35,179 nt of DNA, from assembly GCA_001189335.2 (NCBI GenBank), contig LFJH01000008.1, forward strand, positions 1 through 35,179. Direction: 5' to 3'. Position 1 is the stretch's first letter. Every line of letters begins with the position of its first letter. This document shows, piece by piece, positions 1,277 to 33,496 of this stretch. A program made the position numbers and the translations under genes. The notes under the pieces are model-generated. The model searched no databases. It saw only the letters and a list, made by a program, of their open reading frames with translations, and was not told the origin of the DNA. The stretch comes from Candidatus Paraburkholderia schumanniana (GTDB lineage: Bacteria > Pseudomonadota > Gammaproteobacteria > Burkholderiales > Burkholderiaceae).

Positions 1277-2230
1277 ATGCCGAACGACGCCATCAGCCCG
1301 GCCGCTCACATGGATGCCCTCGACAAACTGATCCAGCTTGCGAACCTGACCGGCGCACTCGATCTGCGCTGCCTCTTGAGCGGGCCGCTGGAGCTCGATC
1401 ACGCGCCGGCGCCGCCGGGCGAAGCGGTGTATCACGTCGTGCTGGATGGCGCCTGCACGGTGTTGCGCCAAGGTCATGCGCCGCTCGAACTGAACGCGGG
1501 CGATATCTTCTTCCTGCCCCGCGGCGATGCGCACGTGCTGAGCATCGAGGCACGCGAACGCAATACGGCAAAGGCGCAGGTGGACAAGCATCACAACGGC
1601 GCGGTGACGATAGAAAGCAATTGCGGCGGACGGCGGCCTGGGGTGGACCTGCTCTGCGGGCGCTTTCTCTACGCGCCGCGCGCGCTGCTGGTCGACGTGC
1701 TGCCCGATGTCGTTCACGTATCGTTCTCGCGCACATCGGCGCCCTATCTCGAACCGCTCGTGCAGACAATGCGACGCGAAGCCGAGGAAGCGCAGCTCGG
1801 CGCGCCGTCGATCGTCACGGCGCTTTCCACCGCCTTCTTCACGATGGTCCTGCGCGCGTGGCTCGCCGAGCAGCCGTCGCTCGCGGGCGTGCTCGGGCTG
1901 CTTGTCGAACCGGCGGCTGGGCGCGTCCATCATCGCGATGCTGGAACGGCCCGCCGAGCCGTGGACGCTCGAGATGCTCGCGAAGGAAGTGGCGATGTCG
2001 TGCACCACGTTCACGCGCGCGTTTTCCGCGCATTCGGACAGCTCGCCGCTGGCGCTCCTGAGTCACGTGCGCATACAGCTCGCGAGCACGATGCTCACGC
2101 AGACGACGAAGAGCATCGCGGATGTCGCGGCGGACGTGGGCACCAGTCCGAGGCGGCTTTCTCGAAGCGGTTCAAGGAGCTTTATGGCGTGGCGCCGGGA
2201 AAATTCCGGCGCGCAAACGGATTGGAATGA
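1277..2230 (+). pseudogene. AraC-family transcriptional regulator, two frameshifts
   Basis: The N-terminal part is a cupin-type AraC sensor domain (AraC_binding_6-like; VYHVVLDGACTVL, LNAGDIFFLPRGDAH), and the C-terminal part is the AraC double helix-turn-helix ending GVAPGKFRRANGLE. The reading frame breaks twice. At 1902-1903 an extra T follows LAGVLGLL and shifts the frame; at 2141-2142 a T is missing where GGC-TAC-CAG (GYQSEAAF) is expected, which restores it. Between the breaks the protein continues in the next frame (ASIIAMLERPAEPWTLEMLAKEV, KSIADVAADV). The shifted stretch includes the first DNA-contact helix, so the product is probably inactive. That helix reads MSCTTFTRAF where the family usually has SRTTF, a further possible lesion. 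ATG at 1310 (MDALDKLIQL) is an alternative and perhaps the better start. Confidence 0.85.
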
Positions 2231-2344
2231 CTGCGGTGCGGTGCATCCGAATCGGAGGATACCGCTGAAACCAGCCGTTGCAGCCTCTCGGATCTGGCCC
2301 AGGCGGCAAGCGGCTCATCCGGACAGTGGCGCTGCAGATGAACT

Positions 2345-2851
2345 TCAGGCGGCCGCGCGGACCGTCCTCAGCGCCGGCAATCCGAACCGCGCCGTCATCT
2401 CCCTCACGCGCAGCAGCTGCGCTGCGACCGCCAGCGCAATCGATCCGGGCGCCTTGTCGACGATGCCTTCCACGCCGATCGGACAGGTAATCTCCGGCAG
2501 ACGATCCGCCGCCATGCCCCGCTCCATCAGACGCCGTTCGAACTTCACGCGCTTGGTCTTCGAGCCGATCAGCCCGAAGTAAGCAAAGTCGTTGCGCCGC
2601 ATGATGCGCTGCGTGAGCGAGAAGTCGAGCGAGTGATCGTGCGTCGTCACGATGAAGTACGCGCCGGCCGGCGCTTCGTCGACGATTGCATCGGGTAGAT
2701 CGGTGACCTCGACCTGCACGTTCGCCGGGACTTCGTCGGGGAACAGCTCGTCGCGCGCATCGACCCATTGCACGACGCACGGCAGCGTGCCCAGCACCTT
2801 TACGAGCGCATGGCCGACGTGGCCCGCGCCGAACAGGACGACGTGCATCAT
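2345..2851 (-). CDS. xdhC: XdhC, C-terminal half only (truncated accessory protein of xanthine dehydrogenase)
   Basis: XdhC binds the molybdenum cofactor and delivers it to xanthine dehydrogenase. The 168 residues here match only the C-terminal Rossmann-type domain: VVLFGAGHVGHALVKVL near the start, then YFIVTTHDHSLDF, FAYFGLIGSKTKR and CPIGVEGIVDKAPGSIALAVAAQLL. Family members are about 300-340 residues and begin with a separate XdhC/CoxI domain, which is absent. Only 13 bases separate this ORF from the xdhB stop, so there is no room for it. A ribosome binding site GGAG at 2861-2864 precedes ATG 2851. The truncated gene therefore seems to have kept its native start region and lost roughly half of its coding sequence by deletion. 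Loss of function is inferred. It is the last gene of the xdh operon. Confidence 0.85.
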   Translation of the reverse strand: MMHVVLFGAGHVGHALVKVLGTLPCVVQWVDARDELFPDEVPANVQVEVTDLPDAIVDEAPAGAYFIVTTHDHSLDFSLTQRIMRRNDFAYFGLIGSKTKRVKFERRLMERGMAADRLPEITCPIGVEGIVDKAPGSIALAVAAQLLRVREMTARFGLPALRTVRAAA

Positions 2852-2864
2852 GACCGTGCGCTCC

Positions 2865-5218
2865 TCACCGCATTGACGCCTTGAGAATCTCTTCCGCCGT
2901 CGCGGGTGCGTTCAAGGGCGGATTCACCTTGTGATCGCCGACCGCCGACACCGCGTCGCGGATCGCGAAAAACACCGAGAACGGCAGGAGCAGCGGGGGC
3001 TCGCCGACTGCCTTCGAGCGATGGATGCTGTCCTCCGCGTTGCGGTTCTTGAAGAGATTCACGCGGAAATCGGCGGGCATATCGTTGGTCGTCGGAATCT
3101 TGTAGGTGGACGGCGCGTGCGTCATCAGCTTGCCGTTGTCGTTCCACCAGAGCTCCTCCGTCGTGAGCCAGCCCATGCCCTGCACGAACGCGCCTTCGAC
3201 CTGACCTTTGTCGAGCGCCGGATTCAACGACGCGCCCACGTCATGCAGCGCATCCGCGCGCAGCACGCGCATCTCACCCGTCAACGTGTCGATCACCACT
3301 TCGGACACCGCCGCGCCATACGAGTAGTAGAAGAACGGCCGGCCCTGCCTCGTCGCCTGATCCCAGTAGAGCTTGGGCGTCGCGTAGAAGCCGTCGGACC
3401 ACAATTGAACGCGCGCGAGATAGGCCTTCTGCACGACTTCCTCGAACGGAATGGCATCGTCGCCGACGATCACGCGGTCGTTCGCGAAACGCACTTCGGA
3501 AGCGGCGACCGTGCCGCCGCCGAACTTCTCCGCCGCGAACGTCGCGAGCCGCTCGCGCAACTGGCGCACGGCGTCCTGCGCGGCCTTGCCGTTCAGGTCG
3601 GTGCCGGTCGATGCCGCCGTCGCCGAAGTATTCGCGACCTTGCTCGTGTCGGTGGCCGTCACGCGCACGCGCTCGAAGTTCACGCCGAGTTCATGCGCCA
3701 CCACCTGCGCGACCTTCGTGTTCAGGCCCTGGCCCATTTCAGTGCCGCCGTGGTTCACGAGCATCGAGCCATCGGTATAGATGTGGACCAGCGCGCCCGC
3801 CTGGTTGAAGTGCGTCACGTTGAACGCGATGCCAACCTTCACCGGTGTCAGCGCGAGACCTTTCTTGAGGATTTCGTTGTTCGCGTTGAACTCGTTGATG
3901 GCCGGCCGTACGTCGGCGACGGTAATCGCTCGTCTCTTCCAGTTCGGCGATCAGTTCATGGATGACGTTGTCTTCGACCGTCTGGCCATAAGGCGTCGTG
4001 TTGTTCTCCGTCTTGCCGTAGAGGTTCGCACGGCGCACGTCGAGCGAGTCGCGGCCGACCGAGCGCGCCACGTTGCCCATGATGTACTCGATCGCGAACG
4101 CGCCCTGCGCCCTGCGGGCCGCCGAAGCCACGAAACGCGGTGTTCGACTGCGTGTTGGTCTTGCCGCAGTAGCCTTCGATCTTCACGTCCGAGAGCCAGT
4201 ACGCGTTGTCGAAGTGGCAGACGGCGCGCGTCATCACGGGCCCCGACAGATCGGCCGAGAAGCCGCAGCGCGAGGTCATGTCGACGGCCACGCCATCGAT
4301 CCTGCCGTCGTCGTAGCCGACTTCGAACTCGTACACGAAGTCGTGGCGCTTGCCGGTGATCATCATGTCGTCGTCGCGGTCCGGGCGCAGCTTCACCGGG
4401 CACGAGAGCTTCCACGCGGCGAGCGACGCACAGCACGCGAAAATCCCCGATTGCGACTCCTTGCCGCCGAAGCTGCCGCCCATGCGCCGGCATTCCACCA
4501 GCACGTTGTGCGAATGCACGTTCAGCACATGGGCGACGAGATGCTGCATTTCCGTCGGGTGCTGCGTCGAGCAGTAGACGTGCATGCCGTCGTCGTCCTT
4601 CGACACCGCGTAGGCGATCTGGCCTTCGAGATAGAACTGCTCCTGGCCGCCGAGCTTCATCGCGCCGCGCTCGCGATGCGCGGCCTTCGTCATGCGTCCT
4701 TCGGCGTCGCCACGCGAGAACTTCAGCGGATTCAACACATACGATTCGGCCTTGCGCGCGTCCTGCGGCGTGAGAACAGGCACGAGGTCTTCGAACTCGA
4801 TGGTCGCGCGGCGCGCGGCGAGCCGGGCCGTATCGTGCGAGGTCGCGACGACGATGAACATCGGCTGACCGACGTACTGCACGATGCCCTGCGCGAGCAC
4901 CGGATCGTCGTGGATGATCGGGCCGCAGTCGTTCACGCCGGGGATGTCGTCGGCGGTGAAGATGGCGACCACGCCGGGCGTCGCGCGCACGGCGTCGAAG
5001 TTCATCGACACGATCTTCGCGTGCGCCTTCGGGCTCGTGCCGAGCGCGGCGTGCAGGGTGCCCGCGACGAGCGGAATGTCGTCGGTGTAGCTAGCGCGCT
5101 CGCTCACGTGCAGATGCGCTGATTCATGCGGACGCGAGACGTGGACCTGCTTGAAATCGTCGATTTCGTTCGCGAGCGACTGGGCTTCGGCGAGGAAGGC
5201 TTCGGCTTGCTGATTCAT
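2865..5218 (-). pseudogene. xdhB: Xanthine dehydrogenase large (molybdopterin-binding) subunit, two frameshifts
   Basis: This subunit carries the molybdenum active site that oxidises hypoxanthine and xanthine to urate. The N-terminal part (5218 down to about 4115) has the aldehyde oxidase/xanthine dehydrogenase a/b-hammerhead domain and continues to SNTAFRGFGGPQG. The middle piece, in another frame (about 4115-3925), reads FAIEYIMGNVARSVGRDSLDVRR. The C-terminal piece, in a third frame, contains VGIAFNVTHFNQAGALVH, GGTEMGQGLNTK and KAVGEPPLLLPFSVFFAI. The first break is an exact 7-bp tandem duplication (GCCCTGC twice, 4102-4115). The second is an insertion of 1 or 4 bases near 3911-3921. Both add one base modulo three. 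Each frame alone lacks a complete cofactor site, so the enzyme is probably dead. It starts 15 bases after xdhA in the same operon. Confidence 0.9.
4102..4115. repeat. 7-bp exact tandem duplication inside xdhB
   Basis: GCCCTGC occurs twice in immediate succession (4102-4108, 4109-4115). Removing one copy restores the continuous protein FRGFGGPQGAFAIEYIMG, which matches the conserved xanthine dehydrogenase sequence. The duplication is therefore the frameshifting lesion. Confidence 0.9.
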
Positions 5219-5233
5219 GTTCGTGTCTTCTTG

Positions 5234-6767
5234 TTACTTCGCTTCGACCAGTTCGATTGCGCGCACATCCAGCTTCGATTTGTCCAGCGGATTCTGCGGA
5301 CGCGTCTCCAGCCAGAAGCGATACAGCAAGCTCTTTGTCGCGTCGAGCCGGTAGTCGCTGCTCGCACGCATGTCGGTGAGCGGCGCGTAGTCGCGGCCCA
5401 GCGCGATCATCGCGGCTTGAACAGTGGCTTCGTGCCAGTGTGCATCGGCGAGATTGGCTTCGGCGTGCGCGGCGCGCTTCGGCGTCGCCGCCATGCCGCC
5501 GTAGGCGAGACGCGGCTCGCGGATCGTGTCGCCATCGGCGATGAAGCTAAAGGCGGCGTACACGGCCGAGATGTCCGAATCGAAACGCTTCGACAGCTTG
5601 TAGGCGCGGAACTGCATTTTGGCGCGCTTGCCTGCGCGCGTTGGCACACGGATGGCGGCGACGAACTCGTTGTCCGCCATGTCCTTCTTCTGATACGCGA
5701 TGTAAAGATCCTCGAGCGGCATCTCGCGCGTGCCGTTGCGTGCCGTTGACACTCTGGAGCACGACGCGCGCGTTCAGCGCGATGAGGCCGGGCATCGAAT
5801 CGCCGATCGGCGAGCCGTTCGCGACGTTGCCGCCGAGCGTGCCCGCATTGCGGATCGGCAGCGACGCGAAGCGCAGGCGCGTCTCTTCCAGCTCCGGATA
5901 CGTCTTCACGATTTCGTCATAGGCACGCTCGACCGTCACGCCCGCGCCGATTTCGATCCACTCCTCCGTCGTCTCGACGTGCCTGAATCCTTCGATCTGC
6001 CCGACATAGACGATGTCGCCGAGATCGCGCAACTGCTTCGTCACCCACAAGCCGACGTCCGTGCTGCCGGCAAGAATGCGCACATTCGGATTACTGCCCT
6101 TCAGCGCGGCGAGCGCTTCGACGGTGCGCGGCGCGTCGAACCGGCGGCCGGCGTGCTCGTAGTGGAAGGTGTCGTCGCGCCTGATGCTTTCGAGCGTGCG
6201 CGCGAGCGCCGGCACGTTGACGGGCGCGAGCGGCGCGTGATCGAACATCTGCTCGGCAGCGTCGATGATCGGCCGATATCCCGTGCAGCGGCACAGATTG
6301 CCCGTGAGCGCGTCGCTGATTTGCTGGCGCGAAGGCCTGGTCTTCTCGCAGGCGTGTGCACAGCCGGTCGTCGCATGACCGTGCTTTTCGTAGAGCGCGA
6401 ACATCGACATCGCAAAACCCGGCGTGCAGAAGTCGCACTGCGAACCGTGGCAATCGATGAGCGCCTGCTGCACCGGATGCAGCGAGCCGTCAGGCTGGCG
6501 CAGATCTTCGACGGTGAAGAGCGCGCGGCCATCGAGCGTCGGCAGGAACTGCACACAGGCGTTGACCGCCTTGAACGCCACGCCGCCGTTTCCGTCCGGC
6601 TCGCCTATGACGACCGTGCACGCGCCGCAGTCACCTTCGGCGCAGCCTTCCTTCGTGCCGGTGCAGCGCGCGTCTTCGCGGAGGTATTGCAGGACGGTGC
6701 GCGTCGTCGACGCGCCGCTCACTTCCTGGATCGCATTGCGGTGATAGAAGCGGATCGGCTGGCTCAT
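5234..6767 (-). pseudogene. xdhA: Xanthine dehydrogenase small subunit (2Fe-2S and FAD domains), frameshifted
   Basis: This subunit passes electrons from the molybdenum subunit through two 2Fe-2S clusters to FAD. From the N terminus it shows a plant-type ferredoxin cluster (CTGTKEGCAEGDCGAC, then AVNACVQF), a second cluster domain (SQCDFCTPGF, NLCRCTGYRPI), the FAD-binding domain (VRILAGSTDVGLWVTKQ, RNAGTLGGNVANGSPIGDS) and the C-terminal CO-dehydrogenase-flavoprotein domain (FRAYKLSKRFDSDIS). The frame is broken between VVLQSVNGT and REMPLEDLYIAY by an exact 10-bp tandem duplication (GCGTGCCGTT at 5728-5737 and 5738-5747). The start is taken at ATG 6767 (MSQPIRFYHRN); the frame is also open to a TTG at 6791. 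It is the first gene of the xdhA-xdhB-xdhC operon. Confidence 0.9.
5728..5747. repeat. 10-bp exact tandem duplication inside xdhA
   Basis: GCGTGCCGTT occurs twice in immediate succession (5728-5737, 5738-5747). Removing one copy rejoins the two frames as SVNGTREMPLEDLY, so this duplication is the frameshifting lesion of the gene. Confidence 0.9.
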
Positions 6768-7108
6768 GTGATCTGTCTCGGGGCTGTTCAATGTTTTTCT
6801 GCTGGTTGCGCGGGATGCGCAGCCGGTGGCATGTCGCGACTTCGAGGGACTTTTCGGATGGGTCCTGTCGCTTCGATGGTTCGAAAGCTATCACCGCCAA
6901 AATCCCCAACCCATAGGCGACGCTACATGAGCGACATATTCGTCCCCCGATATGTCGTTCGAGGCTTGTACAGCAAGGCTTCCGGCGACGCCATCCAACC
7001 GTTCGGACGAGCAATTTGTCCCACTTGGTTACAAAACGGTTGCGACGCTGCGTCGCAACATATGTGACAATCACGCCTTCGCACCGAATTCAAGTCCGCA
7101 ATTTCCCT
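6768..7108. promoter_or_regulatory. Divergent intergenic region with two inverted repeats
   Basis: This is the divergent control region between the xdh operon (minus strand) and the MFS exporter (plus strand). It holds two inverted repeats that could be operators. The first has arms CGACATAT (6932-6939) and ATATGTCG (6950-6957) around a 10-base spacer. The second has arms TTGCGACG (7040-7047) and CGTCGCAA (7051-7058) around CTG, 51 bases before the exporter start. No gene is recognised here and no clear -35/-10 pair was identified. Which regulators bind is unknown. Confidence 0.4.
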
Positions 7109-7799
7109 ATGTCCACCGAGAGCCGCTCCGCCGCCGTGCCGCAAGGCGATTTCGCCGTCACGCTGCGAATCCTGCCGGTCGTGCTGTACACGTTCCTCTG
7201 CTATCTGACCATCGGCATTCCGCTCGCGGTGTTGCCGGGCTTCGTGCACACGGATCTCGGCTACGGTTCGGTGATGGCAGGCGCGGCAATCAGCGTGCAG
7301 TATACTTCGCGACGCTCATGTCGAGGCCGTTCGCGGGCCGCACGGCGGACACGCTCGGTCCCAAGAAAACGGTGCTCTACGGGCTCGCGGCGTGTGCGAC
7401 GAGCGGCGTGCTGCTGCTCGGCTCGGCGCTGGCGGCGCAATGGCATGCGGTGAGTCTCGTGCTGCTCATGGTCGCGCGGCTCGTCCTCGGCTTCGGCGAA
7501 AGCTGGGTCGGCACGGGCTCGATCACGTGGGGCATCGGGCGTGTGGGCGTCGCGAACAATGCGAAGGTGATTTCGTGAAACGGCATCGCCACTTACGGTG
7601 CGCTTGCGGTCGGCGCACCGCTGGGCGTCGCGATCGATCATTCGCTCGGCTTCGCATCGCTTGGGCTGATCGTGATCGCGCTGGGCGGCTTCGGGTTCGC
7701 GCTGGTGTTTCCGGCGCTGGGCGTGGAAGCTGTCGGGCTCGTGCCGCCCCGCACAGGGGCAACGCCAATAGACCGACGCGAATACGGGATCCGGCGATA
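7109..7799 (+). pseudogene. YhhS/YfcJ-type MFS exporter, multiply disrupted
   Basis: The start [15 protein letters not shown] is followed by membrane segments whose wording matches the YhhS/YfcJ group of major facilitator exporters: [69 protein letters not shown]. Three lesions are seen. A 2-bp duplication (TATA, 7301-7304) shifts the frame after AAISVQY. Codon 7576-7578 is TGA where family members have the Trp of ISWNG. The segment LGLIVIALG is joined directly to [21 protein letters not shown], which in YhhS lies roughly 120 residues later. After that motif the frame soon ends at 7799, so the last membrane helices are also missing. Full-length relatives have about 400 residues. The natural substrate of this group is poorly known. 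Confidence 0.85.
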
Positions 7800-7931: not shown

Positions 7932-8680
7932 ATGAACTCGACCTCGAAAGACCGTTGGCGCGACTTGCGCCCGGACCCGGACAGCGACACACCGCTCTAC
8001 CTCCAACTCGCCCGCAAGCTGGCCAACGCCATCCACGAGAACCGCTGGAACGCAGGCGAAGCGCTGCCCTCTGAGCGCGTGCTGTCCGAGGCGTTAGGTG
8101 TATCGAGAATCATGTCGAGAAAGGCGATCGCGCTGCTCGTCGAGCAAGGGCTGATTCGACGCGAGCAAGGCGCCGGCAGCTTCATCACGCCGCGCTACGA
8201 AGATCCGCTGTCGCGCCTGTCGAGCTTTTCCGAGATGCTGCGCCGCCGCGGCTTCAGGCCCAGCTCCAAGTGGCTCTCACGCACCATCGAGCCCGCCAAT
8301 CGCGATGAAGTCATTCAGCTCGGGCTCTCGCCCGCCGCCACCGTCACGTGCCTGAAGCGCCTGCGTCTCGCGGACGACATCGTGACGGCCGTCGAAAACG
8401 TTCGACCTTCCCCGCGTCGTGCATTCCCGACCCGCAGTCCATTGGCGATTCGCTCTACAGCTATCTGGACTCGCGCGGGCTCTCCATCGTCCGCGCGCTC
8501 CAGCATTTCCGCGCGGTGAACGCAAGTCCGGAAATTGCCCGGCAGATGGGCATCGCGCCGCACGACGCGCTCCTGCTCATCACGCGCGTCGGCTACACCG
8601 CCGATCAGCGCGCGATCGAGCTCACCGACACCTACTGCCGCAACGACTACTACGACTTCGTCGCCGAGCTTCGCAAGTAG
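7932..8680 (+). pseudogene. GntR/HutC-type transcriptional regulator, frameshifted (NagR-like)
   Basis: Residues about 20-90 form the GntR winged helix (TPLYLQLARKLANAIHENRW, LPSERVLSEALGVSR, GLIRREQGAGSFI). The rest is the UTRA effector domain of the HutC subfamily, which usually senses small sugar phosphates or acids. The frame breaks after DDIVTAVEN, where the two bases GT (8400-8401) are inserted. The protein then resumes in the other frame as STFPASCIPDPQSIGDSLYSYL and ends DYYDFVAELRK at 8680. The sequence resembles NagR-type regulators of N-acetylglucosamine genes from Burkholderia, but no nag genes are in the window, so the target is uncertain. It lies 28 bases upstream of the DHA2 exporter and may have been co-transcribed with it. 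Confidence 0.85.
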
Positions 8681-11822: not shown

Positions 11823-11892
11823 GATGGTGGTGCGGCGATTCAAAGCGGTATTTTAAGTTCGACGGGCCCATCGCGCAGAAGTGACCCCACGC

Positions 11893-11920
11893 AAAAAAAA
11901 CCCTCCGGAGAGGGCTTTTC
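11893..11920 (-). terminator. Rho-independent terminator of sodB
   Basis: On the minus strand a CCCTC-TCCG-GAGGG hairpin (plus-strand 11901-11914) is followed by eight T residues (11900-11893). It sits about 75 bases after the sodB stop. Confidence 0.85.
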
Positions 11921-11987
11921 TTGCGAAACCGGTCTCGTCGCAAAACCGGCCTTCGATCCAGCTCGAATCGCGCGAAGGACTGACGAC

Positions 11988-12569
11988 TTACGCGCCGAAG
12001 TTCTTCGCCGCGAAATCCCAGTTCACGATATTCCAGTAAGCCTCGATGAACTTCGGACGCGCATTGCGATAGTCGATGTAGTACGCATGCTCCCACACGT
12101 CGATGGTCACGAGCGGCTTCGCGTCCGTCGTGAGCGGCGTGGCGGCGTTGCTCGTCGACACGATATCCACCGTGCCGTCGGTCTTCTTCACGAGCCAGGT
12201 CCAGCCCGAGCCGAACGTGCCGGCAGCGACCTTTGCAAATTCTTCCTTGAACTTGTCGAAGGAACCGTACTTGGCGTTGATCGCGTCAGCCAGCGCACCG
12301 GTCGGCGCGCCGCCGCCCCTCGGCGACAGGCTGTTCCAGAAGAACGTGTGATTCCAGACTTGCGCGGCGTTGTTGAACACGCCACCCGACGACTTTTTCA
12401 CGATCTCTTCGAGAGGCATGTTCTCGTAATCGGTGCCCGGGATGAGCTTGTTCAGGTTGGTCACATAGGTCTGGTGGTGCTTGCCATAGTGATACTCGAG
12501 CGTTTCTTCCGACATGTGCGGAGCGAGCGCGTTCTTGTCGAACGGCAGCGGCGGGAGCGTATGTTCCAT
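11988..12569 (-). CDS. sodB: Superoxide dismutase [Fe]
   Basis: Cytoplasmic iron superoxide dismutase converts superoxide to oxygen and hydrogen peroxide. The 193-residue length is typical. The four metal ligands are visible: His in the N-terminal LEYHYGKHH segment, His in VWNHTFFW, and Asp and His in [13 protein letters not shown]. The phrase [13 protein letters not shown], with Gln in that position, is characteristic of the iron rather than the manganese form. The start is ATG 12569 ([10 protein letters not shown]), preceded by a good ribosome binding site (AAGGAAGG). The gene is monocistronic, with its own terminator at 11893-11920. Confidence 0.97.
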
Positions 12570-15847: not shown

Positions 15848-17588
<1,741 letters not shown>

Positions 17589-17787: not shown

Positions 17788-18566
17788 ATGGAGATGCAAG
17801 GCAACGTCTTTCTGATCACTGGAGGCGCATCGGGCCTCGGCGCCGCGACTGCGCGGCTCGTCGCGGCGCTCGGCGGCAAGGTCGTGCTCGCCGACATGAA
17901 CGACGCGGCAGGCGTTGCGCTCGCGAAAGAACTCTCGGGCGTGTTCGAACTCTCGGGCGTGTTCGTCAAATGCGACGTGAGCCTGGAAAGCGACGGGCAG
18001 CAGGCCGTCGATGCCGCGACGAAGCTCGGCACGCTGCGCGGTCTCGTGAACTGCGCGGGCATCGCGCCGGCGGCGAAAACTGTCGGGCGCGACGGCCCGC
18101 ACGCGCTCGATCTCTTCTCGAAGGTGATTTCGGTGAATCTCATCGGCACCTTTTCAACATGATCCGGCTTGCGGCAAACGTGATGTCGAAGAACGAAGCG
18201 AATGCGGCGGGTGAGCGCGGCGTGATCGTGAACACGGCGTCGGTGGTAGGATACGATGGGCAGATGGGCCAGGCCGCCTATGCGGCGTCGAAGAGCGGCG
18301 TCGCGGGTATGACGCTGCCGATTGCGCGCGATCTGAGCAAGAGCGGCATCCGCGTGATGACGATCGCGCCCGGTCTCTTCGAAACGCCGATGCTGCTCGG
18401 CATGCCGAAGGAAGTGCAGGACGCGCTCGGCGCGATGGTGCCGTTCCCGCCGCGCCTCGGCAAGCCGGACGAATACGCGATGCTCGTCAAGCAGATCTTC
18501 GATAACCCGATGCTCAACGGCGAAGTCATCCGCCTCGACGGCGCCATCCGCATGCAGCCGAAGTGA
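17788..18566 (+). pseudogene. SDR-family 3-hydroxyacyl-CoA dehydrogenase (HSD17B10-like), frameshifted
   Basis: This is a short-chain dehydrogenase of about 250 residues, resembling type II 3-hydroxyacyl-CoA dehydrogenases of fatty-acid or branched-chain degradation. The NAD site [17 protein letters not shown] and the VNCAGIAP motif lie in the first frame. The catalytic Ser ([10 protein letters not shown]) and Tyr-Lys pair ([12 protein letters not shown]) lie in the second. The break is at 18151-18154, where TTTT stands for TT in the family phrase IGTFNMIRLA, giving a 2-base insertion. An in-frame 18-bp tandem duplication (17929-17964) repeats ELSGVF just before VKCDV. ATG 17788 has a ribosome binding site AAGGAG (17775-17780) at good spacing. 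The product would stop soon after the break, before the active site. Confidence 0.9.
17929..17964. repeat. 18-bp exact tandem duplication in the SDR gene
   Basis: The 18 bases at 17929-17946 (GAACTCTCGGGCGTGTTC) are repeated exactly at 17947-17964, adding the six residues of a second ELSGVF. Relatives have a single copy between the NAD-binding helix and the KCDV motif. The frame is kept, so this duplication alone does not inactivate the gene. Confidence 0.9.
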
Positions 18567-18580: not shown

Positions 18581-18613
18581 AAACGGCGGGCTTCTTCCGA
18601 AGTCCGCCGTTTG
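18581..18613. terminator. Terminator hairpin between convergent SDR and sirB1 genes
   Basis: AAACGGCGG (18581-18589) pairs with CCGCCGTTT (18604-18612), with further pairing of CTTC and GAAG around a short loop. The T run is short on both strands, so its strength is uncertain. Confidence 0.6.
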
Positions 18614-18639
18614 CATTCAGTCGCCGTTTGCGTTCAGTC
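18606..18639. repeat. 17-bp tandem duplication spanning the sirB1 stop codon
   Basis: GCCGTTTGCATTCAGTC (18606-18622) is followed at once by the same 17 bases with one change, A to G (18623-18639), and by the first 7 bases of a third copy. On the minus strand each copy contains GGCGACTGA, the last codons and stop of sirB1. The gene end has therefore been duplicated without changing the protein. Confidence 0.85.
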
Positions 18640-19479
18640 GCCGTTTTGCTGGGTGCGCTGCCGCAACTCGTGCAGCTCGGTCTCGACGACCGTCGCGTCC
18701 TCGGCGTCGGGACGACTCTCGATGTAACGCTGCAGGTCTTCCAGTGCGGGACGCAGGTAATCGAGCCGCGCATACGCGAAGCCGCGATCGCGCACTTCCT
18801 CGATGCTGTTCGGCAGCGCGATCACGAGCCTCTGCTGAACCGCCAGCAGACGCTGCCAGCGCTCCGTCTGCAGGTAGATGCCCTTCAGATTGCGCAGCAT
18901 GCGCGCGACGATCTCGCGGCGCGTCGCGGGCTGCAAGAGCACGCGCAAGGCACTGCCGATCGATTCGCCCACGCGCTGAACGTAAGGCTCCAGCATCTCG
19001 ACCATCTGCCCTTCGGAGAGCGTCTGGCCGGTCGTCGGGTCGAGCATCAGATCCTGGCCGGGCGTCGCGACGCGCAGCAGGAAATGTCCCGGAAATGACA
19101 CGCCTCGCACGGGCAGTCCGAGCTGTTCCGCCATTTCCAGATAGACCACCGCAAGCGAGATGGGAATGCCGCGCCGGCGGCGCAGCACGACGTTCAGATG
19201 GCTGTTGTCGGGGTCATAGTAATCGTTCAGGTTGCTGGAGAAACCCAACTCGCGGAAGAAGTAACGATTGAGCGCATCGACCTTCTGCTTCGCGTCGGCA
19301 TCGTCGGGCATGCGGCGGCGGGCGCGCACGACGAGCTCGTCGATCTCCGCGAGCACCGCCTGCATGTCGAGATCGGGATACGCGTCCTGCGCGAGCGACA
19401 AGGCGGCCTCCGTGAGCGGAAGCGTTTCGTCGTCCGCCATCAGCGAAGAAAAGTAATCGAGGATACGCGTTGTCGTCAT
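18634..19479 (-). CDS. sirB1: SirB1 family protein (transglutaminase-like and tetratricopeptide)
   Basis: The 281-residue protein starts [20 protein letters not shown]. The central transglutaminase-like core shows FFRELGFSSNLNDYYDPDNS, RRRRGIPISLAVVYLEMAEQLGLPV and VSFPGHFLLRV. The C-terminal helices (about 200-275, MLRNLKGIYLQ, RGFAYARLDYLRPALEDL) resemble tetratricopeptide repeats. The Cys of true transglutaminases is replaced by Ser in GIPISLAVVY, as is common in this family. The role is not established; the family name comes from a Salmonella invasion-regulation gene. The start overlaps the murJ stop as TGATG, which indicates translational coupling with murJ. Confidence 0.9.
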   Translation of the reverse strand: MTTTRILDYFSSLMADDETLPLTEAALSLAQDAYPDLDMQAVLAEIDELVVRARRRMPDDADAKQKVDALNRYFFRELGFSSNLNDYYDPDNSHLNVVLRRRRGIPISLAVVYLEMAEQLGLPVRGVSFPGHFLLRVATPGQDLMLDPTTGQTLSEGQMVEMLEPYVQRVGESIGSALRVLLQPATRREIVARMLRNLKGIYLQTERWQRLLAVQQRLVIALPNSIEEVRDRGFAYARLDYLRPALEDLQRYIESRPDAEDATVVETELHELRQRTQQNGD

Positions 19480-22690: not shown

Positions 22691-23620
22691 ATGACCTCCA
22701 AGAAAATTCGCCACTATCTTCAGTTCAAGGATTTTTCGCTCGACGACTACGAATACGTGCTCGAACGCGCGCGCATCCTGAAGCGCAAATTCAAGAACTA
22801 CGAGACCTATCATCCGCTGCACGATCGCACGCTCGCGATGATCTTCGAGAAGAGCTCGACGCGCACACGCCTCTCGTTTGAGGCGGGCATCTTCCAGCTG
22901 GGCGGTCACGCAGTATTCATGAACACGCGCGACACGCAACTCGGCCGCGGCGAGCCGATCGAGGATTCGGCGCAGGTCATCTCGCGCATGGTCGACATCG
23001 TCATGATCCGCACGTTCGGGCAGGACATCATCCGGCGTTTCGCCGAAAGCTCGCGCGTGCCGGTCATCAACGGGCTGACGAACGAATATCACCCGTGCCA
23101 GGTGCTGGCGGACATCTTCACCTTCTACGAGCATCGCGGTCCGATTTCCGGCAAGACCGTCGCCTGGGTCGGGGATGCGAACAACATGCTCTATACGTGG
23201 ATCGAGGCGGCGCAGATCCTCGGATTCAAGCTGCACCTCTCCACGCCGCTGGGCTACAAGCTCGACCACGCGCTCGTGTCGGAGCAAAGCGCGCCCTTCT
23301 ATGAGGAATTCGACGATCCGAACGAAGCGTGCGCAGGCGCGGACCTCGTCACCACGGACGTCTGGACCAGCATGGGCTTCGAGGCCGAGAACGAGGTGCG
23401 CATGAAGGCGTTCGCCGACTATTGCGTCGATGCCGAGATGATGGCGCGCGCCAACCCCGACGCGCTCTTCATGCATTGCCTGCCCGCGCATCGCGGCGAG
23501 GAGGTGAGCGCGGAAGTCATCGACGGTCCGCAGAGCGTCGTCTGGGACGAGGCAGAGAATCGCCTGCATATACAGAAGGCGCTGATGGAATATCTGCTGC
23601 TCGGCAAGCTCAATCACTGA
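22691..23620 (+). CDS. argF: Ornithine carbamoyltransferase
   Basis: ArgF makes citrulline from ornithine and carbamoyl phosphate in arginine synthesis. The 309 residues begin MTSKKIRHYLQFKDFSLDDY. The carbamoyl-phosphate loop is EKSSTRTRLSFE (about 54-65). The second phosphate/ornithine motif is NEYHPCQVLADIFTF. The SMG loop appears as TDVWTSMGFE, and the catalytic Cys motif as FMHCLPAHRGEEV. All match active enzymes. ATG 22691 is taken by homology; an ATG nine bases upstream is possible. The gene is followed by a strong bidirectional terminator. Confidence 0.97.
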   Translation: MTSKKIRHYLQFKDFSLDDYEYVLERARILKRKFKNYETYHPLHDRTLAMIFEKSSTRTRLSFEAGIFQLGGHAVFMNTRDTQLGRGEPIEDSAQVISRMVDIVMIRTFGQDIIRRFAESSRVPVINGLTNEYHPCQVLADIFTFYEHRGPISGKTVAWVGDANNMLYTWIEAAQILGFKLHLSTPLGYKLDHALVSEQSAPFYEEFDDPNEACAGADLVTTDVWTSMGFEAENEVRMKAFADYCVDAEMMARANPDALFMHCLPAHRGEEVSAEVIDGPQSVVWDEAENRLHIQKALMEYLLLGKLNH

Positions 23621-23657
23621 GCGGCGCGTGCGACATGATTCGCCGCCTCAGAAGCGA

Positions 23658-23694
23658 AAAACCCGCCGGACTTCGGTTCGGCGGGTTTTGTTTT
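23658..23694. terminator. Bidirectional terminator between argF and murB
   Basis: An 11-bp stem AAAACCCGCCG / CGGCGGGTTTT (23658-23668 with 23679-23689) has T-rich sequence on the plus strand and an A run before the stem that serves the minus strand. The flanking genes converge here. Confidence 0.9.
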
Positions 23695-23715
23695 CTGCAA
23701 CGCGGCTTCGGACGA

Positions 23716-24747
23716 TCAGAGACAGACCGGCTCCATCTCCAGCTCGACATCGAAGCGCGCAAGCACGTCGCGTTTGATGGACTCGGCGAGTTCGAGTACC
23801 TGCGCACCCGTCGCGCCGCCGCGATTCACGAGCACCAGCGCCTGGCGCTCGTGCACCGCCGCGCCGCCGATGTTGCGCCCTTTCCAGCCGCATCGGTCGA
23901 TCAGCCAGCCCGCAGCGAGCTTCACCTGCCCGTCGGCCTGCGGATAGGAGACCACGCCGGCTTCGCGCGCTTTCAAGGTTTCGAACGCCTGCGCGCTCAC
24001 GACCGGATTCTTGAAGAAGCTGCCCGCGTTGCCGAGCACCGTCCAGTCGGGCAGCTTGGCGCGCCGCACGGCCACGACCGCGTCGAAAATGGCCTGTGCA
24101 TCGCATCTCGATGCGCCCTCCAGCGCACGCGCGACGTCCGCATATTCGGTGCGCGGCGTCCACGCCTTGGGCAGGCGGAATACCACCGACGTGATCATGA
24201 AGCGCCCGCGCCCTGCTCGCTTGAAGAAGCTGTCGCGATAGCCGAACGCGCATGCGGCGCGATCGAACTCGACGCGCGCGCCCGTCGCGAGCTCGACCGC
24301 GCTGAGCCGCTCGAAGCGCTCGCCCATTTCGAGCCCGTAAGCGCCGATATTCTGAATCGGCGCGGCGCCGACCGTGCCCGGAATCAGCGCGAGGTTTTCG
24401 AGGCCCGGCATGCCTTGGGCAAGCGTCCACGCGACGAAATCGTGCCAGTTCTCGCCCGCGCCGGCCTTGATGAGCCACGCGCCGTCCTCCTCGCCGATCA
24501 CGCGCTTGCCGGCGATGCCGACGATCAGCGCGACGCCGTCGAAATCGCGCGTCAGCACGATATTGCTGCCGCCGCCAAGCACCAGTTGCGCCATGTTCAT
24601 GATGCGCCGGTCGACGTGGAGCGACGCGGCTGCGTCGACACTGTCGATTTTCATCGCATGGCGCGCGCGCACGTCGAAGCCGAACGTGTTGTGCGTTTGC
24701 AGCGAGTAGTCGGCGAGAAGTTCGGGCGCGAGGAATGCGTGGGACAT
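23716..24747 (-). CDS. murB: UDP-N-acetylenolpyruvoylglucosamine reductase
   Basis: MurB reduces UDP-GlcNAc-enolpyruvate to UDP-MurNAc with NADPH and FAD in cytoplasmic peptidoglycan synthesis. It has 343 residues, typical of the long type I form. FAD-binding phrases are [39 protein letters not shown] and [18 protein letters not shown]. The catalytic-site phrases [19 protein letters not shown] and the C-terminal [13 protein letters not shown] with [17 protein letters not shown] are present. ATG 24747 ([10 protein letters not shown]) is preferred by homology; the frame is open to 24927. It is divergent from yajQ and convergent with argF. Confidence 0.96.
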
Positions 24748-24892: not shown

Positions 24893-25382
24893 ATGCCATC
24901 GTTTGACGTCGTCAGCGAAGCAAACATGAATGATCGAAGTGAAGAACGCCATCGAGCAGTCGAACAAGGAAATCTCGACGCGCTTCGACTTCAAGGGTTC
25001 GGATTTACGCGTCGAGCAGAAGGAGCGCGAGCTCACGCTCTACGCCGACGACGACTTCAAGCTCGGCCAGGTGAAGGACGTTCTGCTGAACAAGATGGCC
25101 AAGCGCGGCGTCGACGTGCGCTTTCTCGACTACGGCAAGCAGGAGAAGATCGGCGGTGACAAGCTCAAGCAGGTCGTCACGGTGAAGAAAGGTGTGTCGG
25201 GCGATCTGGCGAAGAAGATCGTCAAGATCGTGAAGGACAGCAAGATCAAGGTGCAGGCGAGCATTCAGGGCGACACGGTGCGCGTGCAAGGCACGAAGCG
25301 CGACGACCTGCAAAGCGCGATCGCGCTGCTCAAGAAGGAGGTCACGGATACGCCGCTCGACTTCAACAACTTCCGCGACTGA
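24893..25382 (+). pseudogene. yajQ: YajQ family cyclic-di-GMP/nucleotide-binding protein, frameshifted near the start
   Basis: YajQ-family proteins bind nucleotides or nucleic acids, and some act as cyclic di-GMP effectors. The family start [12 protein letters not shown] is present after a ribosome binding site AGGAG (24881-24885). Then ATGA is duplicated (24926-24929, 24930-24933), which shifts the frame. The second ATG (24930) restores the original frame as [23 protein letters not shown], so a 150-residue protein lacking the first 11 residues could be made by internal initiation. That loses the first beta strand. The rest ([49 protein letters not shown], the end DFNNFRD) is intact. Confidence 0.9.
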
Positions 25383-25434: not shown

Positions 25435-25437
25435 GCT

Positions 25438-26073: not shown

Positions 26074-26109
26074 GGTGTCTTTTCGGTTGTAGCGAGAGCG
26101 GAGTGCATT

Positions 26110-26601: not shown

Positions 26602-26707
26602 GGACGCATTGTAGCGGCGCGTCATGCCGCTCACCATCGGCCATTCGGCCAATTGTGCGAGCATGAGCGACCGTGGCACGATCGTTCGCCAGCAAAGGAG
26701 ATTTGCC

Positions 26708-27859
26708 ATGATCCGCGACCCCGAAATCCAGACGCTGCTCGAAGACACCATCCGCCGCTTCGTGCGCGAGCGGCTCGTGCCGCGCGAGGCCGAAGTCGAC
26801 GAAACGGACGAAATCCCCGCCGACCTCATCGACGCAATGCGCGAAATCGGCATGTTCGGCCTTACTATTCCGGAAGCCTATGGCGGCCTCGGGCTCACGA
26901 TGGAAGAGGAAGTGCGCGTTGCGTTCGAGCTCGGGCAGACGTCGCCGGCGTTTCGCTCGGTGATCGGCACGAACAATGGCATCGGCTCGATCGGCATTCT
27001 GCTCGACGGCAGCGAGGCGCAAAAGGCGCACTATCTGCCGAAACTGGCGTCGGGCGAATTGATTGGCTCGTTCTGTCTCACGGAGCCGGACGCGGGCTCG
27101 GACGCCGCATCGCTCAAGACCAGCGCGAAGAAGGACGGCGGCTTCTACGTGCTCAACGGCACCAAGCGTTTCATCACGAACGCGCCCGAGGCCGGCGTCT
27201 ATACGGTCATAGCACGCACGAGCGACGCGAAGGGCGCGAGCGGCATCTCGGCGTTCATCGTCGAGCGCGGCACGCCGGGGCTTTCCATCGGCAAGCCGGA
27301 TCGCAAGATGGGCCAGCGCGGCGCGCATACCAGCGACGTGATCTTCGAGGACTGCCGCGTGCCGGCGAGCCAACTGATCGGCGGCGTGGAAGGCCTCGGC
27401 TTCAAGACGGCGATGAAAACGCTCGACAAGGGGCGCATCCACATCGCGGCGATCGCAGTCGGCGCGGCGAAACGCATGTTGCGCGACGCGCTCGCCTACG
27501 CGGTGGAGCGCCGCCAGTTCGGCCAGCCGATCGCCGATTTCCAGCTTGTCCAGGCGATGCTCGCCGACAGCAAAGCCGAACTCTACGCCGCCGAATGCAT
27601 GGTGCTGGATGTGGCGCGCCGCCGCAACGAAGGACGCGACGTATCGGTCAAAGCATCGTGCGCGAAGTACTTCGCCACCGAAATGTGCGGGCGCGTCGCG
27701 GATTGCGCGGTGCAGGTGCACGGCGGCGCGGGCTATATCGCGGAATACGGCATCGAGCGCTTCTATCGCGACGTGCGGCTCTTCAGGCTGTACGAGGGCA
27801 CGTCGCAGATCCAGCAGGTAATCATCGCGCCCGGGCTCATGCGTGGCGCCGAGATCTAG
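26708..27859 (+). CDS. Acyl-CoA dehydrogenase
   Basis: This FAD enzyme introduces the trans-2 double bond into acyl-CoA and passes electrons to electron-transferring flavoprotein. Its 383 residues show the N-terminal helical domain (DTIRRFVRERLVPREAEVD), the beta domain with SFCLTEPDAGSDAASLKT and YVLNGTKRFITNA, and the C-terminal domain with YAVERRQFGQPIADFQLVQ and VQVHGGAGYIAEYGIERFYRD. The catalytic Glu is in LYEGTSQIQ, the short-chain position. The frame is complete. ATG 26708 follows a strong ribosome binding site AAAGGAGA. The substrate chain length cannot be told; it may belong to fatty-acid or branched-chain degradation. Confidence 0.94.
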   Translation: MIRDPEIQTLLEDTIRRFVRERLVPREAEVDETDEIPADLIDAMREIGMFGLTIPEAYGGLGLTMEEEVRVAFELGQTSPAFRSVIGTNNGIGSIGILLDGSEAQKAHYLPKLASGELIGSFCLTEPDAGSDAASLKTSAKKDGGFYVLNGTKRFITNAPEAGVYTVIARTSDAKGASGISAFIVERGTPGLSIGKPDRKMGQRGAHTSDVIFEDCRVPASQLIGGVEGLGFKTAMKTLDKGRIHIAAIAVGAAKRMLRDALAYAVERRQFGQPIADFQLVQAMLADSKAELYAAECMVLDVARRRNEGRDVSVKASCAKYFATEMCGRVADCAVQVHGGAGYIAEYGIERFYRDVRLFRLYEGTSQIQQVIIAPGLMRGAEI

Positions 27860-27870
27860 CCGAAACGGTC

Positions 27871-29273: not shown

Positions 29274-30513
29274 GTCTGTTCCCCTTGTTCGAGCGCCCAC
29301 TTCACATGCTCGCGCACCAGCGCGGACGGGTCATCCGCGCGCGCTTCCAAAGCCTTGACGATTGCCTTGCGTTCGCCGGCATCGAGACCGCAAGCGCGCA
29401 ACGCATTGCCCATCGCCACCGCGATATTGCGCAGCCAGTGCTCGTGCCCGATGCGCCGGATCGCGCTGCCCTGCATGCGCGTGTCGAAATCCTGCGCGCT
29501 CCACGCAAACAGCTTGACGAGCGTCGCGCGATCCAGCCCGTGGCGCACGTCGAAATCCGCGACGGGCGCGGCCTGCGCGAACTTGTTCCACGGACAGACG
29601 AGCTGGCAGTCGTCGCAACCGTACACGCGATTGCCGATCAGCGGACGCATCTCCTCGGGAATGCTGCCGTGCAGTTCGATCGTCAGATACGAGATGCAGC
29701 GCCGCGCATCGACGCGATACGGCGCGACGATCGCGCCCGTCGGACAGGCGCCGCGCAGCGCGCGCATTGCCCGCAATGCGCGCCGTCCTGTTCGGGATGC
29801 GGATCGACGGGCAGCGGCACATCGACGAAGATTTCGCCGAGAAAGAACAGCGAGCCGGCATCGCGATCGAGCAGCAAGGAGTGCTTGCCGCGCCATCCGT
29901 TGCCGGACTTCTGCGCGAGCGCGACCTCCAGCATCGGCGCGGAATCCGTGAACGCCCGATAGCCGAACTTGCCGATCTCGCCCTCGATGCGCTCCGCCAG
30001 CTGCTGCAGCCGGTTGCGCATGACCTTGTGATAATCGCGGCCGCGCGCGTAGATCGAAACGACGGCTTGCGAAGGCTTCGCGAGGCGCGACCATTCGATC
30101 GCGCGCCAGTCGTTCTTCTGACCATCGGCTGTCACGACACTTTCATCGCCCGTTTTCGCGAGCGTTTCGGCGGGCAGATAGGCCATGCGCGCGGTGATGA
30201 CCCGTCGCGTTCCGGCCACATGCTCGGCCGGTCGCGCGCGTTTCGTCCCATGTTTGGCCATATAATCCATTTCGCCGTGATAGCCTGCATCGAGCCAGTC
30301 AGCGAGGCCTTTCTCGGCATCCGTCAGGTCGATATCGCTGATACCGACCGCACCGAATCCCAGCTCGCGCCCCCACGCCTTGATGCGTTGCGCGAGTTCC
30401 GACAGCGCAGCCTCCTCTTCGCGAGTGATGGCGCGAGACTCTGAGACGGACTCAGCGGCGGCGGCGCTGGACGCGGTCGAGACTTCAACGGAATGTTCCG
30501 GCAATCGGTTCAT
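29270..30513 (-). pseudogene. queG: Epoxyqueuosine reductase, frameshift in the 4Fe-4S motif
   Basis: QueG reduces epoxyqueuosine to queuosine in tRNA, using cobalamin and two 4Fe-4S clusters. The N-terminal domain is clear ([63 protein letters not shown]). The first ferredoxin motif should read C-x2-C-x2-C-x3-[12 protein letters not shown] is followed by only five bases before GCC-TGT-CCG (ACPTG), where six are needed, so one base is missing within 29750-29754. The second part continues in the other frame ([37 protein letters not shown]). The start ATG 30513 (GTG at 30516 possible) lies 18 bases from the divergent tsaE. Confidence 0.9.
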
Positions 30514-30531
30514 CACGACATTTTACGAGCA

Positions 30532-31110: not shown

Positions 31111-32594
31111 TCAAGCCATTTGCGTCGATCGAAGCGGGCGCCACCGCGCCGCACAACTGGCGCCGCCGCCAGGTGCTGCGCGCTGGCGCTTCGACGCTCG
31201 TGCTCGCGCTCGTCGCGCCGAAGCTCGCGCATGCGAGCAGCGTGCTCGGCGTGCGGGTGTGGCCTGCGCGCGATTACACCCGCGTGACGATCGAATCGGA
31301 CCAGCCGCTGCAGAACACGAACCAGATGCTGCAGGGACCGGACCGGCTCGTCGTCGATCTTTCCGGCATCGATCTCGACCAAGCGCTTCGCGATCTCGTC
31401 TCGAAGATCGCGCCGAACGATCCGCAGATCCAGTCGGTGCGCATCGGGCAGTATCAGCCGCACGTCGTGCGCATGGTGTTCGACCTGAAGGGCTCGGTGA
31501 AGCCGCAGGTGTTCACGCTGGGGCCGATCGGCAGCTACAAGTACCGGCTCGTGTTCGACCTGTACCCGGCCGTCGCGCCTGATCCGCTGATGGAACTGCT
31601 CGCGGAAACCGAGCGCAAGCAGGAAGCGCTCGACCGCGCCAATCCGAATCCGTCCGCGCCGCCGCCCGCGACGCTCTCCGGCCCGACGACCGCCCAGAAG
31701 CCGGGCGCACCGGATTCGACCGACGAGTTCTTCCAGAAGTACGCGCAGAACGAGCCGCCGGCCCAGCGTGCTCCGGCCGCGCCGGCGCCCAGACCGGCCA
31801 CGAAGCCGGCCGCGCCGCCGGTCATCGCGAACAAGGACGAAGACAGCGATCAATGCACCTTCTCGACGCCCAAGCAGAGCACGACGCGCCTGCTCACCGT
31901 CGCGATCGATCCGGGCCACGGCGGCGAGGATCCGGGCGCGATCGGCGGCGCGGGCACGTACGAGAAGCACATCGCGCTCGACATCGCCAAGAAGCTGCGC
32001 GCCAAGATCGACGCCCAGCCCAACATGCGCGCGATGATGACCCGCGACGCCGACTTCTTCGTGCCGCTCAACGTGCGGGTGCAGAAGGCGCAGCGCGTCT
32101 CGGCGGACCTCTTCGTGTCGATCCACGCGGATGCGTTCACTTCGCCGGAAGCGCGCGGCTCGTCGGTGTTCGCGCTGTCGGAGCACGGCGCGTCGAGCGC
32201 GGCGGCGCGCTGGATGGCGAACAAGGAAAATGCGTCGGATCAGATTGGCGGCATCAATGTGGAGTCGCAGGACGCGAGCGTGAGCCGCGCGCTGTTCGAC
32301 ATGTCGACTACGGCGCAGATCCGCGATTCGATGCGCTACGGCAGCTTCGTGCTGAACGAGATTGGCGGCATCAACAAGCTGCACAAGGGCTCGGTCGAGC
32401 AGGCGGGCTTCGCCGTGCTGAAGGCGCCGGACATTCCGTCGATCCTCGTGGAGACCGCATTCATCAGCAACCCGGAAGAGGAAACGCGGCTGAACGACGA
32501 CGCCTATCGCGACAAGATGGTCAACGCGATCATGAAGAGCATCAAGCGCTACTTCGCGGCCAACCCGCCGCTCGCGAAGGGCCGCATGACGTAA
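31092..32594 (+). CDS. amiC: N-acetylmuramoyl-L-alanine amidase AmiC
   Basis: AmiC cleaves the peptide from peptidoglycan in the periplasm to separate daughter cells. The 500 residues begin with a twin-arginine signal: RRRQVLRAG (about 24-32), hydrophobic ASTLVLALVA, and a cleavage site near KLAHASS. An AMIN domain follows (about 50-160; VLGVRVWPARDYTRVTIES, VVDLSG, RMVFDLKG), then a Pro/Ala-rich linker (about 190-250), then the Amidase_3 zinc domain. Zinc and catalytic residues are seen in AIDPGHGGEDPGAIG, the Glu in TYEKHIALDIAKK, SIHADAF, and the catalytic Glu in SILVETAFISNPEE. It overlaps tsaE at the start and the convergent eamA at the end. Confidence 0.96.
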   Translation: MSRKMLIKPFASIEAGATAPHNWRRRQVLRAGASTLVLALVAPKLAHASSVLGVRVWPARDYTRVTIESDQPLQNTNQMLQGPDRLVVDLSGIDLDQALRDLVSKIAPNDPQIQSVRIGQYQPHVVRMVFDLKGSVKPQVFTLGPIGSYKYRLVFDLYPAVAPDPLMELLAETERKQEALDRANPNPSAPPPATLSGPTTAQKPGAPDSTDEFFQKYAQNEPPAQRAPAAPAPRPATKPAAPPVIANKDEDSDQCTFSTPKQSTTRLLTVAIDPGHGGEDPGAIGGAGTYEKHIALDIAKKLRAKIDAQPNMRAMMTRDADFFVPLNVRVQKAQRVSADLFVSIHADAFTSPEARGSSVFALSEHGASSAAARWMANKENASDQIGGINVESQDASVSRALFDMSTTAQIRDSMRYGSFVLNEIGGINKLHKGSVEQAGFAVLKAPDIPSILVETAFISNPEEETRLNDDAYRDKMVNAIMKSIKRYFAANPPLAKGRMT

Positions 32595-33496
32595 GAACTG
32601 CGCGCGGCTCCGTCCAGCGCGGCGACGCCATCACGCGCTGGACGAGCCGCCCGCCGAACACGTTCACCACGAGCCCCGCCATCACGAGCGCCGCGCCGAC
32701 GATCTGGGCGGCGCTCATTCCCTCGCCGAGAAACACGGCTGCCGACACGAGCCCGATCACCGGGACGAGCAGCGAAAACGGCGCGACGCTCCCCGCCGGA
32801 TAGAGCGCGAGCAACTTTCCCCACAGGCTGTAGCCGACGATCGTCGCGACGAACGCGAGATAGAGAATCGCGCAGACCGAGACGAGCGGAATCGCCGCGA
32901 CACTCGATTCGATGCGCGCCGGGCCCTCGAAGATCAGCGAGAGCGCGAGAAACGGCAGCGGCGGAATCAGGCTGCCCCACACGACGAGCGACAGCAGATC
33001 GACCTTGCCCATCGCCTTCGTCACGACATTGCCGAGCGCCCACATCGCGGAGGCCGCGAGCGTGAAGAGAAAGCCGGTGAGGGTCATCGCGTGGCCGCCC
33101 TGCATGCCGATGACCGCGAGCCCCGCCGCGGCGATCACGAGCCCGGCCACGTTCGCGGCGCGGATGCGCTCGCCCAGGAACAGCGCGGCAAAGATGAGCG
33201 TGAAGAACGCCTGCGCCTGCAACACGAGCGAGGCGAGCCCCGCGGGCATGCCGACATACATGCCATAGAACAGCAGCGCGAACTGCCCGAGGGAAATGGT
33301 GAGCCCGTAGGCGAAGAGTCAGTGCAGCGCGATCTGCGGGCCGCTTGACGAAAAACGCGGGCACGGCGGCGAGCGCAAAACGGAACGCGCCGAGGAGCAT
33401 CGGCGGGACACCGTGCAGGCCCAGCTTGATGACGACGAAATTCACGCCCCACGCGAAAATGACCACCGTTACGATCAGCAAATCCCTTGGCGACAT
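32542..33496 (-). pseudogene. eamA: EamA-type (DMT) cysteine/O-acetylserine exporter, frameshift and nonsense codon
   Basis: The product is an inner-membrane transporter of the drug/metabolite superfamily with two EamA repeats, closely worded like E. coli EamA, an exporter of O-acetylserine and cysteine. The N terminus (MSPRDLLIVTVVIFAWGVNF, then VVIKLGLHGVPPMLLGAFRF) is in one frame up to PAFFVKRP. The rest (LFAYGLTISLGQFALLFY, MPAGLASLVLQAQAFFTLIF, LVVWGSLIPPLPFLALSL, LLVPVIGLVSAAVFLGE) is in another. One extra C in a run of three (33338-33340) shifts the frame. A second lesion turns the Trp codon of LHWLF into TGA (33319-33321). An open frame restarts downstream at MYVGMPAGLA (33261), but it lacks the first three helices. 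The 3' end overlaps the convergent amiC. Confidence 0.9.

Follow-up and report, generated by a model that had tools for sequence, protein, structure and literature searches.

Short tandem duplications in a genome-reduced Caballeronia: an ordinary insertion process probably exposed by relaxed selection

The 35,179-nucleotide contig LFJH01000008.1 of Candidatus Paraburkholderia schumanniana (hereafter the window; it is the entire contig C46, one of 282 in an assembly that totals 2,353,486 bases with a completeness of 60%) contains broken genes in which short stretches of DNA are duplicated in tandem. An earlier note on this DNA had read these duplications as the recurrent cause of gene disruption and had suggested a common process, such as replication slippage in a lineage with altered repair. 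According to our analysis, the duplications recur through the sampled genome, and we consider it likely that relaxed selection has exposed the group's ordinary, homology-independent insertion process, so that the special signature is mostly apparent. Under this explanation, duplications would arise throughout the group and be retained wherever selection has relaxed. Small insertions, many of which repeat the adjoining bases exactly (up to 27 bp), would form without pre-existing repeats, and small deletions would be nearly as numerous as insertions in this decay.

The window belongs to a Caballeronia with a reduced genome, many of whose genes have probably escaped selection. The closest protein matches among named records belong to Burkholderia (Caballeronia) peredens (96%), C. 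cordobensis, C. catudaia and others, and 'Candidatus Burkholderia' verschuerenii, humilis and pumila are also among the named matches. We take the last three to be plant leaf-nodule symbionts; the window genome, small and with many broken genes, is presumably one as well. The window aligns to close Caballeronia over most of its length, mostly at 84–90% identity, with window gaps of 0.1–1.2 kb.

Duplication density and selection

Perfect tandem duplications were counted in 25 stretches of the window genome (341,137 bases, the window included) and in free-living relatives (659,501 bases), by which we mean genomes of 5.5–10 Mb whose free lifestyle is presumed from their size. With a unit of at least 10 bp, 28 duplications were found in the window genome (8.2 per 100 kb) and 10 in the relatives (1.5 per 100 kb; one-sided P = 7 × 10−7). 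The relatives' stretches are for the most part mutual orthologues, so that a shared duplication may count repeatedly. For units of at least 15 bp, the counts were 14 and 1, respectively. Where the stretches of the window genome could be aligned, 11 of 12 duplications with a unit of at least 10 bp were new and one was unclear. Repeats with units of 7–9 bp are less informative, because 14 of 24 were ancestral, with 8 new and 2 undecided. Unit lengths ranged from 10 to 27 bp without a peak; no unit of 30 bp or more occurred in any genome sampled, which may be real or reflect short-read assembly.

Most of these duplications sit outside intact genes. Among the duplications with units of at least 10 bp, the relatives carried 3 in 585,730 bases of coding DNA (0.5 per 100 kb) and 7 in 73,771 bases of non-coding DNA (9.5 per 100 kb). 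In the window genome, 5 lay in 28,005 bases of intergenic DNA, 5 in 47,621 bases of broken genes and only 2 in 78,890 bases of intact genes. Intergenic DNA and broken genes together therefore gave 13.2 per 100 kb (10 events), and 10 events against the relatives' 7 over near-equal lengths are no defensible difference, the counts being small and judged without a formal statistic. The density in unconstrained DNA is thus comparable to that of the relatives, within small numbers.

Duplications were also counted in other genomes. In Paraburkholderia, 66 duplications with units of at least 10 bp in 916 kb put the total density near that of the window genome, and this closeness is explained by the coding/non-coding split: in the 25 of 45 loci to which the split was applied, non-coding DNA held 22 duplications in 83,418 bases, more than the non-coding DNA of the Caballeronia relatives. 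Samples of four other reduced Caballeronia genomes, all of which retain the 5' nuclease domain of DNA polymerase I (Pol I), contained 16 duplications in 371,653 bases (3, 3, 6 and 4), exceeding the free-living genomes (P = 0.007). One of these samples (G040) includes the pumila locus L043, assumed to be of the same species. The named humilis and verschuerenii loci were kept out of this pool; they showed no duplication with a unit of at least 10 bp in 27 kb, a sample too small to tell. G055, one of the four reduced genomes, held 6 in 73,060 bases, equal to the density of the window genome.

The distribution of frameshifts also points to selection. In the window, frameshifts were found in xdhA, xdhB, an MFS transporter gene, a GntR regulator gene, an SDR gene, the N-terminus of a YajQ-family gene, queG and an EamA gene, while adk, murJ, murB, plsY, tsaE and argF, which we presume to be essential, keep uninterrupted open reading frames, as in decay under relaxed selection. 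Across the sample, frameshifts fell in 27 of 124 genes against 35.5 expected if uniform (P = 0.0005, assuming that the heuristic gene calls are right). Such clustering is expected if selection guards some genes only, and it is unlike random error. Sequencing or assembly error could be suspected in a draft of 282 contigs in which no unit reaches 30 bp, a possible short-read k-mer limit. However, the frameshifts are concentrated in a subset of genes, the presumably essential genes named above read through, and other assemblies show similar duplications. Moreover, we know of no type of base-calling error that produces exact copies of 10–27 bp. We regard error as highly improbable.

Unit ends and the indel spectrum

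Slippage of the polymerase back to a preceding repeat should leave a duplication in which the end of the unit matches bases at its start. In 27 of the 28 duplications of the window genome (one array of an 11-bp unit with 18 extra bp was left out), end homology of 0, 1, 2 and 3 bp was found in 13, 8, 5 and 1 cases, respectively. These values match the fractions of 0.53, 0.26, 0.12 and 0.05 expected if breakpoints fell at random in that sequence. Among the duplications of the other reduced genomes, end homology was 0 in 10 of 14 and 1 bp in 4 of 14, with two arrays left out. Random end homology requires a copying process that is free of homology.

Replication slippage of the classic kind, in which short direct repeats are already present, is accordingly a poor candidate, and we judge it very unlikely as the general source. 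It would suit the insertions of 1–3 bp, all of which (22 of 22) pass the exact-copy test, but chance largely suffices for this at that size: the 2-bp insertion at position 8400 passes, and its alignment shows no clear copy. It would also suit the 7-bp event at position 4100, which shares 3 bp at its ends, and the 11-bp-unit array, which is a true repeat array. The remaining 27 duplications stand against it: 13 share no end base and none shares more than 3. For the longer units, slippage was set aside.

The molecular step is probably either the fill-in of a staggered break or the ligation of an uncut flap. By the first route, fill-in followed by blunt joining would leave a head-to-tail copy without homology; by the second, a displaced, uncut flap would be ligated with the same outcome.

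Excision of transposons leaving target-site duplications was considered as another source. A sequence common to many contig ends, probably the end of an insertion sequence (IS), is frequent in the window genome. One IS family is expected to make duplications of fixed length; in the window genome the unit lengths do not cluster at any value, and inverted ends are not in excess among the units of the sample. Target-site duplications were therefore set aside as extremely improbable. Parts of positions 1–383 of contig C270 (L119) can be found again at base 1 or a contig end of 12 further contigs of the genome, as expected of an IS that breaks the assembly.

Small insertions and deletions (indels) were polarised over 146,278 aligned bases of the window genome. 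Events were accepted as clean when isolated and with a support of at least 85%, a rule that 76 of 151 segments passed and 75 did not; events of 40 bp or more, of either sign, were left out of the tally. Of the clean events, 43 were insertions and 33 were deletions. The decay of bacterial pseudogenes is commonly portrayed as driven by deletion; here, clean small insertions are at least as common. An exact-copy test was passed by 33 of the 43 insertions, including the 22 of only 1–3 bp, and by 11 of the 21 insertions of at least 4 bp. The larger insertions are thus often exact copies of their neighbours, and units of at least 10 bp need no end homology. Identical treatment of six free-living genomes (714,939 bases) gave 24 insertions and 16 deletions, of which 9 insertions (1 exact copy) and 2 deletions were of at least 4 bp.

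In the broken genes of the window genome, 21 frameshift-sized insertions and 21 frameshift-sized deletions were counted, compared with one of each in intact genes. Duplication thus ranks among the main sources of multi-base insertions, but insertions account for only half of the broken-gene frameshifts and deletions for the other half. In its contribution to gene loss, the process looks ordinary.

Repair genes and the case against relaxed selection

Altered repair, in which loss of Pol I with its 5' flap nuclease, of mismatch repair or of both would have raised the duplication rate in the lineage, is the principal alternative. Searches of the 60% complete assembly gave no match for mutS, mutL or polA, which are present in 12 of 12 other genomes searched, nor for Ku, which the other Caballeronia searched all possess (8 of 8). 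Of 58 Caballeronia genomes, 57 have the Pol I 5' nuclease domain, the window genome being the sole exception; the domain-bearing set includes eight reduced genomes of 2.8–4.2 Mb that are 96–100% complete. Homology-free duplication would also fit the ligation of uncut flaps.

On the other side, the non-coding DNA of the relatives is comparable, and G055 has the Pol I domain and the same duplication density, for which reason loss of polA as a necessary cause was set aside. The loops handled by mismatch repair are a few bases long, and units of 7–27 bp would be left unexplained. When 20-kb neighbourhoods of mutS, polA and mutL from a relative were compared with the assembly, those of mutS and polA matched on one side only, ending near contig ends, and that of mutL matched weakly. 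Since the neighbourhoods are mostly without a match and the assembly is 60% complete, gene loss is indistinguishable from missing assembly. On balance, altered repair seems unlikely to us.

Several observations weigh against relaxed selection as the explanation, some of them in favour of altered repair. The repair genes without a match are among them. The window genome lies above the four pooled reduced genomes (28 versus 16 duplications, P = 0.049), and its intergenic DNA taken alone reaches 17.9 per 100 kb (5 events), more than the non-coding DNA of the relatives, a figure that itself comes from 7 events, a heuristic open reading frame call and stretches of which some are orthologous to others. 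The calls were at times placed on the wrong strand, as in the xdh and sirB1 regions, and a similar, stricter call underlies both the classes of broken and intact genes and the clustering test; the classes are partly circular, frameshifts helping to define 'broken'. The spectrum of clean events of at least 4 bp leans to insertion (21 insertions, 9 deletions), as do frameshift-sized events in intergenic DNA (10 and 2). Ten of the 21 insertions of at least 4 bp fail the exact-copy test; some of these are imperfect copies, such as an insertion of 15 bp in which 14 bp match in one run, and others are unexplained.

A combined possibility is that multi-base insertions in decaying Caballeronia genomes stem mainly from homology-free copying of 4–27 bp, by ligation of uncut Okazaki flaps or fill-in of staggered breaks, and that this copying is further raised here by the loss of Pol I. 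We consider this unlikely; if true, the window lineage would offer a natural analogue of flap-nuclease mutants. Reduced and larger Caballeronia genomes, taken together, could serve to measure both the process and the effect of losing Pol I or mismatch repair.

Relaxed selection thus remains our preferred explanation, and the proposals of the earlier note fare unequally under it. A recurrent process is supported, as duplications with units of up to 27 bp recur through the sampled genome. Slippage between pre-existing repeats does not agree with the end homology of units of at least 10 bp, which is that of random breakpoints. Altered repair is not required, given the comparable densities in the relatives' non-coding DNA and in G055, and it keeps its low probability through the repair genes that lack a match. 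The proposed comparison of the indel spectrum with control genomes does reveal enrichment of units of at least 10 bp (28 versus 10), but unconstrained DNA is comparable to that of the relatives. As for duplications being the cause of disruption, insertions lead among events of at least 4 bp, whereas the frameshifts of broken genes are evenly divided, and duplications are neither the only nor the principal cause.

Sites in the window and known systems

All strings that the earlier note had tied to coordinates are present at those positions, and Tandem Repeats Finder independently returned units of 7, 10, 17 and 18 bp in the window. The novelty of insertions was checked by alignment to up to 23 close Caballeronia loci. 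None of the aligned relatives carries the insertions at 1902, 4100, 7301, 18151, 24926 and 33341. For the 10-bp (5728) and 18-bp (17929) insertions, the position of the aligner's gap varied between relatives, and net length was compared instead; by this measure, they are likewise found in the window only (19 of 19 and 13 of 13 genomes). The quoted duplications are therefore real and, where testable, absent from the aligned relatives.

The genes xdhB and xdhA carry three of the insertions. In xdhB, on the minus strand, an exact 7-bp tandem duplication lies at 4100–4116 (14 of 14 relatives, 17 of 17 genomes), and a net gain of 4 bases at 3900–3908, which the earlier note had not listed, fits a 4-bp tandem duplication (18 of 18 genomes; an exact-gap vote gave +2 instead in 12 of 14 relatives). 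In xdhA, on the minus strand, an exact 10-bp tandem duplication occupies 5728–5748, where 15 of 15 relatives are 10 bases shorter. The MFS transporter gene has a 2-bp duplication at 7301–7304 (15 of 15 relatives) and an internal loss further on. In the GntR/UTRA regulator gene, the 2-bp insertion at 8400–8401 (16 of 16 relatives) is no clear copy of its neighbour. The YajQ-family gene contains an exact 4-bp duplication near its N-terminus at 24926–24933 (7 of 7 relatives, 8 of 8 genomes), within which the ATG at 24930 opens a frame of 150 amino acids.

Other sites called for qualification of what had been claimed. The exact 18-bp tandem duplication at 17929–17965 in the SDR (FabG-like) gene is real; being in frame, it does not by itself break the frame, and the same gene carries a 2-bp duplication at 18151–18154 (23 of 23 relatives). 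The 17-bp duplication placed at the sirB1 stop does lie at the 3' end of a minus-strand open reading frame with Transglut_core2 and TPR matches in Pfam (SirB1-like; 18605–18646), but Tandem Repeats Finder shows an imperfect copy with one mismatch. This stretch is variable; good alignments were obtained for some relatives only, of which several have a single copy. Where single repeated bases had been reported, a net gain of one base is clear and the identity of the extra base is ambiguous, both at 1902–1903 in the AraC/RclR-like regulator gene (9 of 9 relatives, 13 of 13 genomes) and at 33338–33342 in the minus-strand remnant of an EamA-family gene (7 of 7 relatives, 8 of 8 genomes).

Deletions, detectable only by alignment, also occur in the window. 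Net losses of one base were located near 2138 in the AraC/RclR-like gene (2112–2171; 13 of 13 genomes), near 2877 close to the 3' end of xdhB (2849–2907; 18 of 18), near 16621 and 16713 at the 3' end of kdsB and beyond (16597–16742; 20 of 20 for each) and near 29754 in the minus-strand queG, where the frame is broken (29724–29783; 8 of 8). A larger loss is that of argG, which takes up about 1.2 kb in a relative and is missing at 23618–23718 between the intact argF and murB; its protein gave no tblastn match within the window, the rest of the genome not having been searched. Two further length differences were noted. About 1.2 kb at 26690–27870 is shared with the more distant loci L109 and L110 and absent from the close relatives aligned there. 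At 11830–11990, 9 of 16 close named loci have at least 1 kb of extra sequence that the window and the others do not have, reflecting either insertion in those relatives or loss in the others.

A literature search returned no bacterial pseudogene counterpart of this short-duplication spectrum, most subscription literature being outside its coverage; on duplications in flap-nuclease mutants it gave none that were bacterial by title, and on short tandem duplications by fill-in it gave none. Partial parallels were found in three systems. In early symbiont decay as described in passages on SOPE (PMC3914690), there are, as here, many pseudogenes, frameshifting indels, premature stops and IS expansion; the short tandem-duplication spectrum reported here does not appear in those passages. 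The reduced symbiont Burkholderia sp. Lv-StB retains only fragments of polA and is without mutS, ku and ligD, according to passages of PMC7042692. The window genome is similar in that polA, mutS and Ku have no match; it differs in that its assembly is 60% complete, making loss and missing data indistinguishable, and the Lv-StB passages mention no duplication signature. In the human genome, many recent short insertions copy the adjacent segment, and the joining of broken ends has been put forward as a mechanism (Messer and Arndt 2007, as summarised in a passage of PMC2654908). Many of the insertions described here are likewise copies of the adjacent segment; unlike the human case, they lie in a decaying bacterial genome, in whose 60% complete assembly Ku has no match. 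The process thus resembles the known short tandem-duplication insertions, to which the window genome adds an instance from bacterial decay.

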